Program-made: the position numbers and the translations under genes
Shown here: positions 25,878 through 29,478 of the stretch, in pieces
Layout: each line of letters starts with the position of its first letter
How positions within the stretch are numbered: position 1 is the first letter of the stretch
Notes under the pieces: generated by a model
Database searches by the model: none
Seen by the model: only the letters and a program-made list of their open reading frames with translations
What the model was told of the DNA's origin: nothing
Source: Fibrobacter sp. UWH6
GTDB lineage: Bacteria; Fibrobacterota; Fibrobacteria; Fibrobacterales; Fibrobacteraceae
Assembly: GCF_900142465.1 (NCBI RefSeq)
Contig: NZ_FRAX01000001.1
Coordinates: 248,001 to 312,000 of the forward strand
Direction of reading: 5' to 3'
DNA length: 64,000 nucleotides

Positions 25878-26031
25878 TATTACACCTCTTTTATTTGTTG
25901 TTTTGCTTGTAAATTAACAATTTTTAAACCTTAAATGCAATGATTATAAGAAAAAAAACAATAATGCTTGTTGTGAAGGCTACATTATGTAAGGTAAATC
26001 ACATAGATAACTGGGGAAAAACGCCTTTTTT
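25878..26031. other. AT-rich spacer between two minus-strand genes
   Basis: 154 nt with no gene. It contains the leader of the AbrB-like gene (AGAGGTG close to the start) and T-rich tracts after the hydrolase-like gene stop; no clear hairpin is seen. Confidence 0.4.
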
Positions 26032-26838
26032 TTACCTTGTTTGGGCAGTAAGATGTTGTAAGGCTTGGTTTAATTTATTACTTAAGGGACTGCCTTGAGC
26101 CTTGATTTTTTTGAAATTGGGGTGTTCTTTTTCGAAAATCAAGTTGCTTTCTTGCCTATTTTGTCTATCCTGAATGAGAATAACCTGTTCTGGAATAGCT
26201 ATTTCGTTCAAGTCGGGCATGTCGACTTTTGTCCGTATCAAAAATTTGGGATAAAGAAGTCTGTATTTTTCGTTGATCTTGTCGGCAATGCTGCTGATGG
26301 GGTCAATTAAAAATAAACTGCTTTTTTTTGTGTATTTAAGTTGTTCTGCGGCTAAAATAGCTCCGATTCCCCTTCCGGCGACTATTTCAGGCGCCCTGCC
26401 GGTAATTTGGCTTGCGCAAGCGGTGATTTGCCTGGCGTCATCTAGAAAATTCTCTGAGGAGGGGGTTCCCTTGTTGTTTCCGCTGCCTCTATAATTGAAT
26501 GTGACTAGCGTGCTTTGTGCATTTTCTCCCGCTTCGGCGAGAAATTGGGCCCCATCTTCATCTGTGTCGGGGAAATAGAGCAGAATGGACTTGTTATCCG
26601 AACCGAGCTGCCAACCGCTTAAAATGTTGCCGTCTTCCAGCGTGCAGGAAATCTGTTTTGCCTTGCCCTGAATCGCTGCGTTGGCTTCTTTGTGGGTAAT
26701 TGCCCGCGGAAATGCGATTTGGCGTTCTGTAAGTGCAAGGTAGAATACCATGCTGCAGTAAATGAGGGCGAGAGCACCTAAAAGTCGTAATATTCTAAGG
26801 AAAAAGCCCTTTATAGATGATGGATTGAACGAATTCAT
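26032..26838 (-). CDS. Membrane-anchored alpha/beta-hydrolase homologue lacking the nucleophile
   Basis: 268 aa. One N-terminal membrane segment (about 15-36) is followed by an alpha/beta-hydrolase-like domain: KSILLYFPDTDEDGAQF, TLVTFNYRGSGNNKGTPSSE, FLDDARQITA. The elbow reads VAGRGIGAILAA, with Gly157 where Ser is expected. The final catalytic His is also not evident (KIKAQGSPLSNK). The order of blocks matches membrane-anchored BEM46/YtfL-like hydrolases. Probably a non-catalytic homologue. TATCTTTG on the complement (26844-26851) ends 5 nt before the ATG, suggesting a leaderless mRNA. Confidence 0.7.
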   Translation of the reverse strand: MNSFNPSSIKGFFLRILRLLGALALIYCSMVFYLALTERQIAFPRAITHKEANAAIQGKAKQISCTLEDGNILSGWQLGSDNKSILLYFPDTDEDGAQFLAEAGENAQSTLVTFNYRGSGNNKGTPSSENFLDDARQITACASQITGRAPEIVAGRGIGAILAAEQLKYTKKSSLFLIDPISSIADKINEKYRLLYPKFLIRTKVDMPDLNEIAIPEQVILIQDRQNRQESNLIFEKEHPNFKKIKAQGSPLSNKLNQALQHLTAQTR

Positions 26839-26944
26839 GTATACAAAGATAGAAAAATAAGGATGAAATAATAAAAGTAACTTATAAAGTTCTGTATACG
26901 GACGTGGACTGTTCCCGTATGGAATCTTACAAGGAAAATTATAA

Positions 26945-27000
26945 AGAAAAAAGGACTTCCGCTTGGAGTGAAGCGGAAGTCCGAGGGATGGGATTGGGTG
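26945..27000 (-). ncRNA. Candidate small RNA of about 55 nt
   Basis: On the minus strand a promoter-like TATATTTA (27006-27013) is followed by GGGAACACCCAATCCCATCC and then a perfect 12-bp hairpin (26953-26964 with 26971-26982), and six T, C, TTT. Element plus terminator predict a short untranslated transcript beginning near 27000. There is no reading frame of meaning. Its 5' end overlaps one GGTGTTCCC repeat. No RNA family is recognised. Confidence 0.4.
26946..26982 (-). terminator. Strong minus-strand terminator upstream of the hydrolase-like gene
   Basis: Stem GGACTTCCGCTT / AAGCGGAAGTCC (26953-26964 / 26971-26982), 12 bp perfect with a 6-nt loop, followed on the minus strand by TTTTTTCTTT. 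No annotated minus-strand gene lies upstream of it, which is why a small RNA is proposed. Confidence 0.8.
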
Positions 27001-27155
27001 TTCCCTAAATATAGGCTAATTTTTTTAAGGTGGGTATAGGAAAAATGCATGGTGTTCACGAAAGTGTTCTCTAGGTGTTCTCTAGGCTGATACTAGTAGT
27101 AAAGCGGCTTTTTTTACATCGTCAAGGGGGTGCTTTTTACAAAGAAGGTGTTCCC
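26997..27155 (+). repeat. Array of five GGTGTTC-type repeats upstream of TIGR02147 gene
   Basis: Copies: GGTGTTCCC at 26997-27005, GGTGTTCAC at 27051-27059, AGTGTTCTC at 27063-27071, GGTGTTCTC at 27074-27082 and GGTGTTCCC at 27147-27155, all in one orientation. Copies three and four form a perfect 11-nt tandem (GTGTTCTCTAG twice). The first copy abuts the minus-strand promoter element and the last lies 18 nt before the TATATTTC of the regulator gene. This arrangement looks like iterated operator sites. Confidence 0.6.
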
Positions 27156-27187
27156 AAAAATGTCCGAAAAAATTATATTTCCTGCTG

Positions 27188-28042
27188 ATGAACGTTTATG
27201 CATATTACAATTACAGGAAGTACCTGCAGGACTATTATGACTACCGGAAGTCTGTCCAGCGGTATTTTTCCTATAGGTCTTTTGCCAAGAAGGCGGGGTA
27301 TTCGTCTTCTGGATTCTATCTAGACCTGATTCGTGGCCGTAAGTCTCTTACGCCCCAGATGCTGCCGAAGTTTATTGCGGCGCTGGGACTGAACGAGAAG
27401 GAAGGCCGCTATTTTACCTTGATGGTTGATTTTACTCATGCTACTACTCCGGCATCCAAGCAGGCTATCTTCGAGCAGATGTCTGCTCTGTTGCCCAGTG
27501 CCATCAAGTCTTTGACCAAGAACCAGCAGGAATACTACAGCAAGTGGTATTATGTGGCTGTTCGCGAAGCCCTTTCCGTGCTGAATATTGGCGAGAAGAA
27601 TATTCAGGAACTGGCGCTGTTCCTGAACCCGAAGATCACGCTCCCGCAGGCAAAACAGGCTATTCAGCTCCTGTTGAACCTGCAGTTGATCGAATTGGAT
27701 ATTACCGGTTGCTATCGTTCTGTGAACAAGGCCATCTTCAGTGGGTCCGAAATCGCTCCGCTGTTCGTTCATCAGTTCCAGAAACAGATGATTGATTTGG
27801 GTAAAGATGCCCTGGATCACTACAGCACCGAACGTAGAAATGTATCTTGCATGACAATGAGCGTGTCTGCCGAAGGTCTGGAACGTATTATCAGCAAGAT
27901 TGACTTGTTCCGCAAGGAAGTTGTCGACATTGTCCGTTCCGACGAAGGCGAGACTATGATTGCCCAGATGAATATTCAGTTCTTTCCGCTGAGTAAGGAA
28001 AAGGTTGCCTTGCCTCCGGAACCTGATGAGGAGGATGCATGA
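27188..28042 (+). CDS. TIGR02147-family regulator
   Basis: 284 aa. The N-terminus YAYYNYRKYLQDYYDYRK and YFSYRSFAKKAGYSSSGFYLDLIRGRKSL fits the TIGR02147 family, whose first 70 residues resemble a helix-turn-helix DNA-binding domain. The rest is helical (KEGRYFTLMVDFTHA; ISKIDLFRKEVVDIVRSDEGE). The family is found mainly in Fibrobacter, in many copies next to lipoprotein genes, and is thought to be regulatory. It overlaps the downstream lipoprotein gene by 4 nt (ATGA). TATATTTC (27174-27181) ends 6 nt before the ATG. Likely acts on the GGTGTTC array (inference). Confidence 0.9.
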   Translation: MNVYAYYNYRKYLQDYYDYRKSVQRYFSYRSFAKKAGYSSSGFYLDLIRGRKSLTPQMLPKFIAALGLNEKEGRYFTLMVDFTHATTPASKQAIFEQMSALLPSAIKSLTKNQQEYYSKWYYVAVREALSVLNIGEKNIQELALFLNPKITLPQAKQAIQLLLNLQLIELDITGCYRSVNKAIFSGSEIAPLFVHQFQKQMIDLGKDALDHYSTERRNVSCMTMSVSAEGLERIISKIDLFRKEVVDIVRSDEGETMIAQMNIQFFPLSKEKVALPPEPDEEDA

Positions 28043-29478
28043 GGACTCGCTTTTTGAATTGTTTGATGCTGGTGGCGTTTTGCGTCGCCGGGCTCGCTTT
28101 CGTGAGTGCCTGTTCCAGTGACTCCAGTACTGCAGGAACTGTGACTGATACGGGCAATACCATTGCTACAACTGAAGCTGAAGTGGCCGGCGTGGTCCAT
28201 CGTGCCGATGGCTCTGTTGCCGTGAACGCTACTGTCAGGATGGCCAGGTTGGCAAGCTCTGAGGCAGATTCTTATGAAATCCCCGAGTCTAGGGATACTG
28301 TGACGGACTCTGCAGGTCGGTTCGCCTTTGCCGTTGCAATGGCTGACACCTTCCAGTTGGCTGTTTTTGATTCCTTGGCATCTGAAATTTTCTACCTGCC
28401 GTATACGACTTCGAAGTCTGACGATTACGATTCCATCAGGCTAGAAAAGGCCGCCTTGTTTAACGGCGTTCTCCTTTATGAAGAAGCCGATTCTGCAGTG
28501 AAGGTTGGCTCCCACTTTATTGTTAGCCTGACAGGAACGCCCTTCTTCCAGAGCGTATTTGCTGGCGATTCGTTCAGCTTGATGATTCCCGCTGGTACTG
28601 GCTGGATGTCGTTCTTCCCCTGGGACCCGGAGATTGTTGCCAAGCTGCAGGATTCCGGTGTCGCGGACAGCCTGATTTATCGCCGCTGGGAACTGAAGGA
28701 CTCTGTTGCTGCCGGAGATACCGTTACACAGGGACCGTTCATCTGGAGCATTAAGTCTGACGTGGATTCCCTGATCAAGGAAGAGGAAGAAGTCGCTAAG
28801 GTCGTATCCCGTATTAGCGGTACCGTTATTTGCAAGAGCGGCAAGCCTTGTGACAGTGTGGAAGTCATGCTGATTACGGATCTGTACGGCTTTGACTTTG
28901 TCGAAGGTGATTCTGTTGAATTTGTTGTAAATGCGAAGACGGATAGCCTTGGCCGCTGGTGGTTGCCTGTTCCGGAATCCGTTCCCGAAGATTCCTTCAG
29001 AGTTGAATATCGATTGATGATGGATGGCTTCCCGGTCCAGGTTGGCGTGTCCCGCTATGTGATGGCTGGTGAAGTCAAGAATCTGAAGGACACGCTGGAT
29101 GTCGGTGTAGACACGTTGAGCAAGCCGTCGGGACTGTCTTATGGTGTTGCCCTGGTTGTTGACCGCGAAGATACGACCCAGTCTAGTGACTGCATGCTGA
29201 ATAGCGTTGTTGTGGGTATTAAGGGTACATCCCATTTTGTTCGCGACGTCACTTGCTACGATGAGGCTTCTCTAGTGGATCTGCCTATGGGCGTACAGGA
29301 TGTGATTCTCTATTCCGGCGACCCCAAGGTCGTGGCAAAATTGCGTGAGATGGAGGTCCCCATGATGTACTATGTGACCCAGAATGCGGTGTCTTTGCCC
29401 GAGGGAAGTGTCCAACAGGTACAGTGGATGACCTATAGTCCAATCAATCTCAGCATTTTTTCTGAAAAAAATGAATAA
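28039..29478 (+). CDS. Large lipoprotein with repeated carboxypeptidase-regulatory-like domains
   Basis: 479 aa. The signal peptide ends in a lipobox, VSACSSD (Cys about residue 25). A Thr/Ala linker is followed by a beta-sandwich domain, AEVAGVVHRADGSVAVNATVRM, which is a carboxypeptidase-regulatory-like pattern, and a second such unit starts at about 258 (SRISGTVICKSGKPCDSVEV). Translationally coupled to the TIGR02147 gene, the standard partner arrangement in Fibrobacter. Surface or periplasmic; ligand unknown. A hairpin (29488-29515) follows 9 nt after the stop. Confidence 0.85.
   Translation: MRTRFLNCLMLVAFCVAGLAFVSACSSDSSTAGTVTDTGNTIATTEAEVAGVVHRADGSVAVNATVRMARLASSEADSYEIPESRDTVTDSAGRFAFAVAMADTFQLAVFDSLASEIFYLPYTTSKSDDYDSIRLEKAALFNGVLLYEEADSAVKVGSHFIVSLTGTPFFQSVFAGDSFSLMIPAGTGWMSFFPWDPEIVAKLQDSGVADSLIYRRWELKDSVAAGDTVTQGPFIWSIKSDVDSLIKEEEEVAKVVSRISGTVICKSGKPCDSVEVMLITDLYGFDFVEGDSVEFVVNAKTDSLGRWWLPVPESVPEDSFRVEYRLMMDGFPVQVGVSRYVMAGEVKNLKDTLDVGVDTLSKPSGLSYGVALVVDREDTTQSSDCMLNSVVVGIKGTSHFVRDVTCYDEASLVDLPMGVQDVILYSGDPKVVAKLREMEVPMMYYVTQNAVSLPEGSVQQVQWMTYSPINLSIFSEKNE

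Follow-up and report, generated by a model that had tools for sequence, protein, structure and literature searches.

Within the window, the whole stretch of 64,000 nucleotides of Fibrobacter sp. UWH6 DNA that was analysed, an array of short direct repeats fills the gap between a minus-strand hairpin with its T-run on one side and the ORF at 27188–28042 on the other (Table 1). This ORF encodes a protein of the TIGR02147 family, here termed the regulator, and probably forms one operon with the predicted lipoprotein gene that follows it. A homologous lipoprotein ORF was identified in 65 of the 66 orthologous loci, at 23–69% identity.

Table 1. Features of the regulator–sRNA locus, in window positions.
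Feature	Position	Strand	Remarks
Candidate sRNA, ~55–58 nt	26948–27005	-	covariance model 81.4 bits; start predicted at ~27005–26999
Intrinsic terminator hairpin of the candidate sRNA, 12 pairs	26953–26982	-	T-run at 26952–26947
Site 1, GGGTGTTCC context	26996–27004	+	covers the predicted sRNA start; nearly all orthologues have GTGTTC
Putative sRNA -10/-7 element TATATTTA, TAnnTTT type	27006–27013	-	TAnnTTT there in many orthologues
Extra GGTGTTC copy	27051–27057	+	54 nt after site 1
Site 2, first half of the tandem	27064–27069	+	11 bp to site 3 in orthologues with the tandem
Site 3, second half of the tandem	27075–27080	+	11-bp tandem partner of site 2
Site 4, GGTGTTCCC	27147–27155	+	40 nt before the regulator ATG, position of a -33/-35 element
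Putative regulator -10/-7 element TATATTTC	27174–27181	+	14 nt before the ATG; mRNA would be near-leaderless
TIGR02147 (Fsuc_second)/DUF4423 protein, 284 aa	27188–28042	+	NCBIfam, Pfam
Predicted lipoprotein (CarboxypepD_reg)	28039–29478	+	4-nt overlap of its start with the regulator stop

The regulator matches TIGR02147 with 347 bits over residues 1–270, against a cut-off of 50 (NCBIfam), and DUF4423 in Pfam. Its predicted structure (pLDDT 82.9, pTM 0.57) shows an N-terminal XRE-like helix-turn-helix (HTH) and a winged-helix-like domain at about residues 108–186. By comparison with the PDB, the N-terminal domain (residues 5–89) was nearest to HigA/DdrO-type repressors and the second domain to ArsR/MarR-type regulators, in both cases with a Z of ~8, a range that may reflect only common arrangements. 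The HTH_3 profile scored 13.1 bits on the window protein against a cut-off of 23 (E 0.1); the best HTH matches among family members were to HTH_31 (E 1.4e-4) and HTH_3 (E 0.0045). For the regulator phmmer found no PDB relative, a family profile gave weak HTH matches only, and Foldseek returned nothing under E 0.001. In the literature search no paper mentioned TIGR02147 and DUF4423 appeared in one table entry, which is consistent with the statement in the sequence-only reading that no operator was known for this family.

Four exact copies of GGTGTTC lie on the same strand in the array (26997–27003, 27051–27057, 27074–27080, and 27147–27153). An AGTGTTC at 27063–27069 is the fifth copy of the array, giving five GTGTTC on one strand with a G before four of them. 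The sequence-only reading had described five GGTGTTC in one orientation; number and orientation stand, with one copy reading AGTGTTC instead. The perfect 11-nt tandem that it reported (GTGTTCTCTAG, twice) is present at 27064–27085, and the outermost copies lie close to the putative promoter elements as it had proposed. The first is 2 nt from the minus-strand TATATTTA (27013–27006), and the last ends 20 nt upstream of TATATTTC (27174–27181), the 18 nt given earlier being correct when counted from GGTGTTCCC. Within this single genome the clustering of GTGTTC is suggestive and only moderately unusual. When the 349-nt intergenic region was shuffled 20,000 times with dinucleotides preserved, a 6-mer with at least five copies arose 64 times (p ~0.003), and a 6-mer with five copies was present in 41 of 2,624 overlapping windows of the genome. 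Across the whole 64-kb window the count of GGTGTTC is unremarkable.

Conservation of the array across species, as judged by sequence comparison, is decisive. Of 80 Fibrobacter genomes, 78 have a close TIGR02147 orthologue, and 64 further orthologous loci, taken from named genomes, carry the same array upstream. At least two GTGTTC were present in 72 of 76 distinct orthologous promoters vs. 2 of 318 background upstream regions (taken from 400 kb of the genome of the window), and at least three on one strand in 65 of the 76 vs. none of the 318. An array arising by chance is ruled out by this conservation. The occurrence of repeat arrays upstream of orthologues had been set as a test beforehand, and such arrays were found across the Fibrobacteraceae.

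Four sites recur, namely one over the predicted sRNA start, the tandem pair, and one ~40 nt before the regulator ATG. The earlier count of five copies holds for this locus, but the conserved set comprises four; the copy at 27051 is a lineage extra, limited to the clade of the window, where it reads GTGTTC or is degenerate, and in other lineages the tandem pair lies one slot nearer to site 1. The tandem spacing is 11 bp in all 75 promoters having a tandem, which lies 55–57 or 64–67 bp from site 1 across orthologues, and in 72 of 77 promoters site 4 lies between -41 and -34 relative to the ATG. Among groups of equal spacing the sites are 0.90–1.00 identical vs. 0.53–0.62 for the spacer between the tandem and site 4, and pairwise identity of site 4 reaches 0.98–1.00 in two aligned classes. 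In Fibrobacter of the rumen and gut, conservation this strict suggests that the protein may act through these sites on its own gene as well as on the RNA. Elsewhere in the genome of the window the tandem pattern is near background (25 vs. 16) and the array therefore appears private to the locus; GGTGTTCTCTAG has one further copy only. A genome-wide GTGTTC regulon was rejected, the 11-bp tandem pattern being near background away from the locus.

A number of relatives depart from this layout. The tandem was lost in two relatives (loci L111 and L116), in which the sRNA was not detected and two sites remain; in terms of genomes, G050 and G055 have apparently lost the RNA and the tandem and kept two sites. 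In G146, whose orthologue is 59% identical, the array was kept and the RNA diverged, while G123 kept the array together with a similar C-rich stretch and hairpin that was not called by the covariance model. One clade (L091–L098) has a reverse-orientation GTGTTC close to where the -35 of the sRNA promoter would be, ~134 nt upstream of the regulator; other clades have GTATACC or GTGATACG in that place, perhaps a degenerate site. Copies of GACAACGG are 109 bp apart in the paralogue L009 (-168 and -59), a spacing that is also found between the two sites left in L111 and L116, possibly by coincidence.

Words of the TANNTTT(G) type are most frequent at -13 relative to the first ATG in long ORFs of the genome of the window, which suggests that many Fibrobacter mRNAs may be near-leaderless. 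A TAnnTTTG promoter element is known from Bacteroidetes; our literature search returned no paper on start sites of Fibrobacter succinogenes. With TATATTTC at -14, site 4 would take the place of the -33/-35 element and site 1 would lie over the likely sRNA start. These positions would favor repression.

The candidate sRNA consists of an invariant 5′ region (GAACACCCAAUCCCAUCC) followed by the terminator hairpin, the minus strand reading GGGAACACCCAAUCCCAUCCCUCGG, then the 12-pair hairpin and then the T-run. An 18-nt sequence in the 5′ region (GAACACCCAATCCCATCC) is invariant in 40 distinct sequences, and compensatory changes were identified in 11 of the 12 hairpin pairs, or in 10 of 12 on an alignment not fitted to the structure; the fold has a z of -7.4. 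The candidate thus combines a conserved structure with an intrinsic terminator. One strong covariance-model copy was found per genome in Fibrobacter and in five other genera of the Fibrobacteraceae, beside the regulator orthologue in the loci checked, so that the two genes lie back to back and are conserved together. There was no match in genomes where the best TIGR02147 protein is a distant paralogue (for instance all of genus g4, G073, and G147), and weak matches outside the Fibrobacteraceae (E 1e-4 to 0.01) were taken as chance. Rfam gave nothing at the gathering score in 26000–28500, only a sub-threshold chance match. Covariation and the invariant 5′ sequence back the earlier suggestion of a candidate sRNA next to the array, which is here a well-supported candidate for a new sRNA family. 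A near-full-length complement of the RNA occurs in its own genome at its own locus and at one 3-mismatch site only, and a 12-letter core occurs at 52 scattered places in the 80 genomes and at none in its own. No convincing targets were identified by long complementarity. In L079 (2768–2843, a MAG) a different sequence right behind the invariant 5′ region disrupts the hairpin, and in G018 the hairpin is shortened.

The hairpin could instead belong to the leader of the leftward gene (at 26838) and serve there as an attenuator; this gene lies on the same strand, and its family is the neighbor in ~60 of the 66 loci. Such a role is very improbable because a separate TATCTTTG, at -13 relative to the start codon of the leftward gene, lies downstream of the terminator. 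Furthermore, the hairpin sequence changes freely next to a constant 5′ region, which means that the two have kept no alternative pairing, and in the distant relatives L110, L115, and L194 the hydrolase gene on the left was not found while array and hairpin are present.

The spacing between the tandem and site 4 varies among orthologues, mostly by whole helical turns. Where site 4 starts with G or A the distances are 20–21, 50–53, 62–63, 72–74, 83, and 94, near whole multiples of 10.5, with one outlier at 99. On the regulator gene tree, 13 changes of at least 4 bp were reconstructed (45, -31, 20, 10, 11, 42, -21, -11, 21, -11, 10, -9, and 14). Their mean cosine at 10.5 bp is 0.73, which random draws from two null models attained in ~2 of 100,000 cases (simulated p ~2e-5), and the best period is 10.6; the parsimony reconstruction and the 4-bp threshold were the analyst's choices. 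A clade with TTGTTCCC as site 4 is about one-third of a turn off (66–68, 76–77, and 57), and its distances shift by about whole turns among its own members. Pooling all distances gives a weak phase (R 0.34, p 0.09). The whole-turn changes in spacing point to a DNA-bound protein, as phasing is expected for protein contacts along DNA and not for RNA pairing.

This bears on the possibility that the repeats act at the RNA level, as pairing sites for the sRNA 5′ end in a longer regulator transcript. Sites 1–4 are indeed complementary to the invariant 5′ end of the sRNA, with GGGAACACC complementing GGTGTTCCC, but whole-turn spacing is a property of DNA, and the likely regulator promoter, at -14 from the ATG, lies downstream of all the sites. 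In addition, the sites vary to A or T where the sRNA has an invariant C, and two of them persist in L111 and L116, where the sRNA was not detected. We give pairing a very low probability.

A further line of evidence comes from paralogues, the genome of the window having 22 full-length TIGR02147 genes. A best-repeat scan of these 22 promoters gave a clear result for only about six, and five or six of the 21 paralogues had no clear repeat by a simple scan; the best-repeat scan misses spaced half-sites and comparison of subfamilies was used instead. One of these six or so results, that for L012, looks like the terminator of an upstream gene. Among the subfamilies compared, the GTGTTC half-site is found in orthologues of the window gene only, GTATCATT in 14 of 15 FSKLAG-type promoters, GTATAGTA in all three FCK-type promoters and TGAATCATAT in all four L016 orthologues, so that the table of half-site vs. 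subfamily is nearly diagonal. The layouts are alike. In other Fibrobacter genomes one subfamily has AATGATAC near -135, GTATCATT near -122, and a third half-site, again GTATCATT, at -51. Another subfamily has the same geometry in other letters (TA(C/T)TATAC/GTATAGTA/GTATAGTA), and the paralogue L014 in the genome of the window has TATAATACA/TGTATAATA/TGTATAATA at -133, -121, and -49. The repeats are direct at the window locus vs. inverted pairs in several paralogues. A palindrome is conserved in four orthologues of L016. The sequence-only reading had asked for gene-specific repeats upstream of other TIGR02147 genes, and subfamilies with their own half-sites in a similar layout answer to this.

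Since the half-sites differ between subfamilies whose promoters are similarly laid out, the operators appear to follow the protein, and the half-site table is the strongest evidence that TIGR02147 proteins may bind their own promoters. Another DNA-binding protein recognizing GTGTTC, with the TIGR02147 gene and the sRNA merely among its targets, would leave the same local conservation, and computation cannot name the binder. We nevertheless consider a foreign regulator unlikely, as it would not produce distinct half-sites with a like layout in the other subfamilies, and beyond this locus the array is nearly absent.

The array is thus best read as an autoregulatory operator of the TIGR02147 protein shared with the divergent sRNA, to which we assign a probability of about four in five. 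The autoregulatory iterated operator suggested beforehand gains support from the conserved arrays and the subfamily-specific half-sites. Counting against it are the weak HTH matches, the clade whose site 4 is out of phase and the weak phase of the pooled distances, the two relatives lacking the tandem, the contrast between direct repeats here and inverted ones in paralogues, and the paralogues with no clear repeat. This operator would lie between the near-leaderless regulator promoter and the divergent promoter of the ~55-nt sRNA, with the XRE-like HTH recognizing GTGTTC(C/T)C. The protein may occupy the tandem half-sites, which at 11 bp are one helical turn apart and on the same face, and would also bind proximally, at site 4 in its own -35 region and at site 1 over the sRNA start. 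Because of the whole-turn spacing, the tandem-bound and promoter-bound proteins may touch each other, perhaps by looping. Judged from site positions only, the most likely outcome is that both promoters are repressed and relieved by a signal. Alternatively, the sRNA could be activated from the tandem, 55–67 bp upstream.

Divergent regulator/sRNA pairs are represented in enterobacteria by OxyR–OxyS, SgrR–SgrS, and GcvA–GcvB (PMC4423775). The locus of the window resembles these in that a transcription factor gene adjoins a divergent candidate sRNA gene, the two having a putative control region in common, and in an sRNA that ends in an intrinsic terminator. Those pairs involve proteins of the LysR type or SgrR, whereas here the protein is of the XRE-like TIGR02147/DUF4423 kind, the candidate sRNA, of 55 nt, has 18 invariant nt in its 5′ region, there are four phased GTGTTC sites, and the regulator has a putative near-leaderless promoter and a lipoprotein in the same probable operon. 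With its TIGR02147 paralogues the regulator shares family membership and private promoter repeats; it differs from them in being near-universal and single-copy in the genus, in having a candidate sRNA as partner, and in that its repeats are direct instead of inverted. Operators with several phased sites and looping are known from lambda CI, lac, and ara. As in these, distal and proximal sites lie whole helical turns apart, but the half-sites here are 6–8 bp and iterated as direct repeats, and looping is suggested by spacing only.

A large uncharacterised family would hereby gain its first candidate binding sites, with an operator rule that is testable on every TIGR02147 member, and the paralogues, with a common layout and differing half-sites, form a natural set for the study of divergence in DNA specificity. 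The RNA would add a new sRNA family to a cellulose-degrading phylum in which our literature search found no described sRNA. The TIGR02147 gene and its lipoprotein look like a paralogous two-gene module. It is conceivable, though doubtful, that across the Fibrobacterota such pairs are envelope-sensing modules with private operators (a distal pair plus a proximal half-site), and that one ancient module gained an sRNA output.

In the genome of the window a TIGR02147 fragment with two TGA stops (G000:C21:35302–35553, L023) is likely a pseudogene. By a simple lipobox scan ~15–16 of the 22 TIGR02147 genes are directly followed by a lipoprotein ORF, often with a 4-nt overlap, and many of these lipoproteins have a recurrent VAG(G) shortly past the lipobox cysteine.
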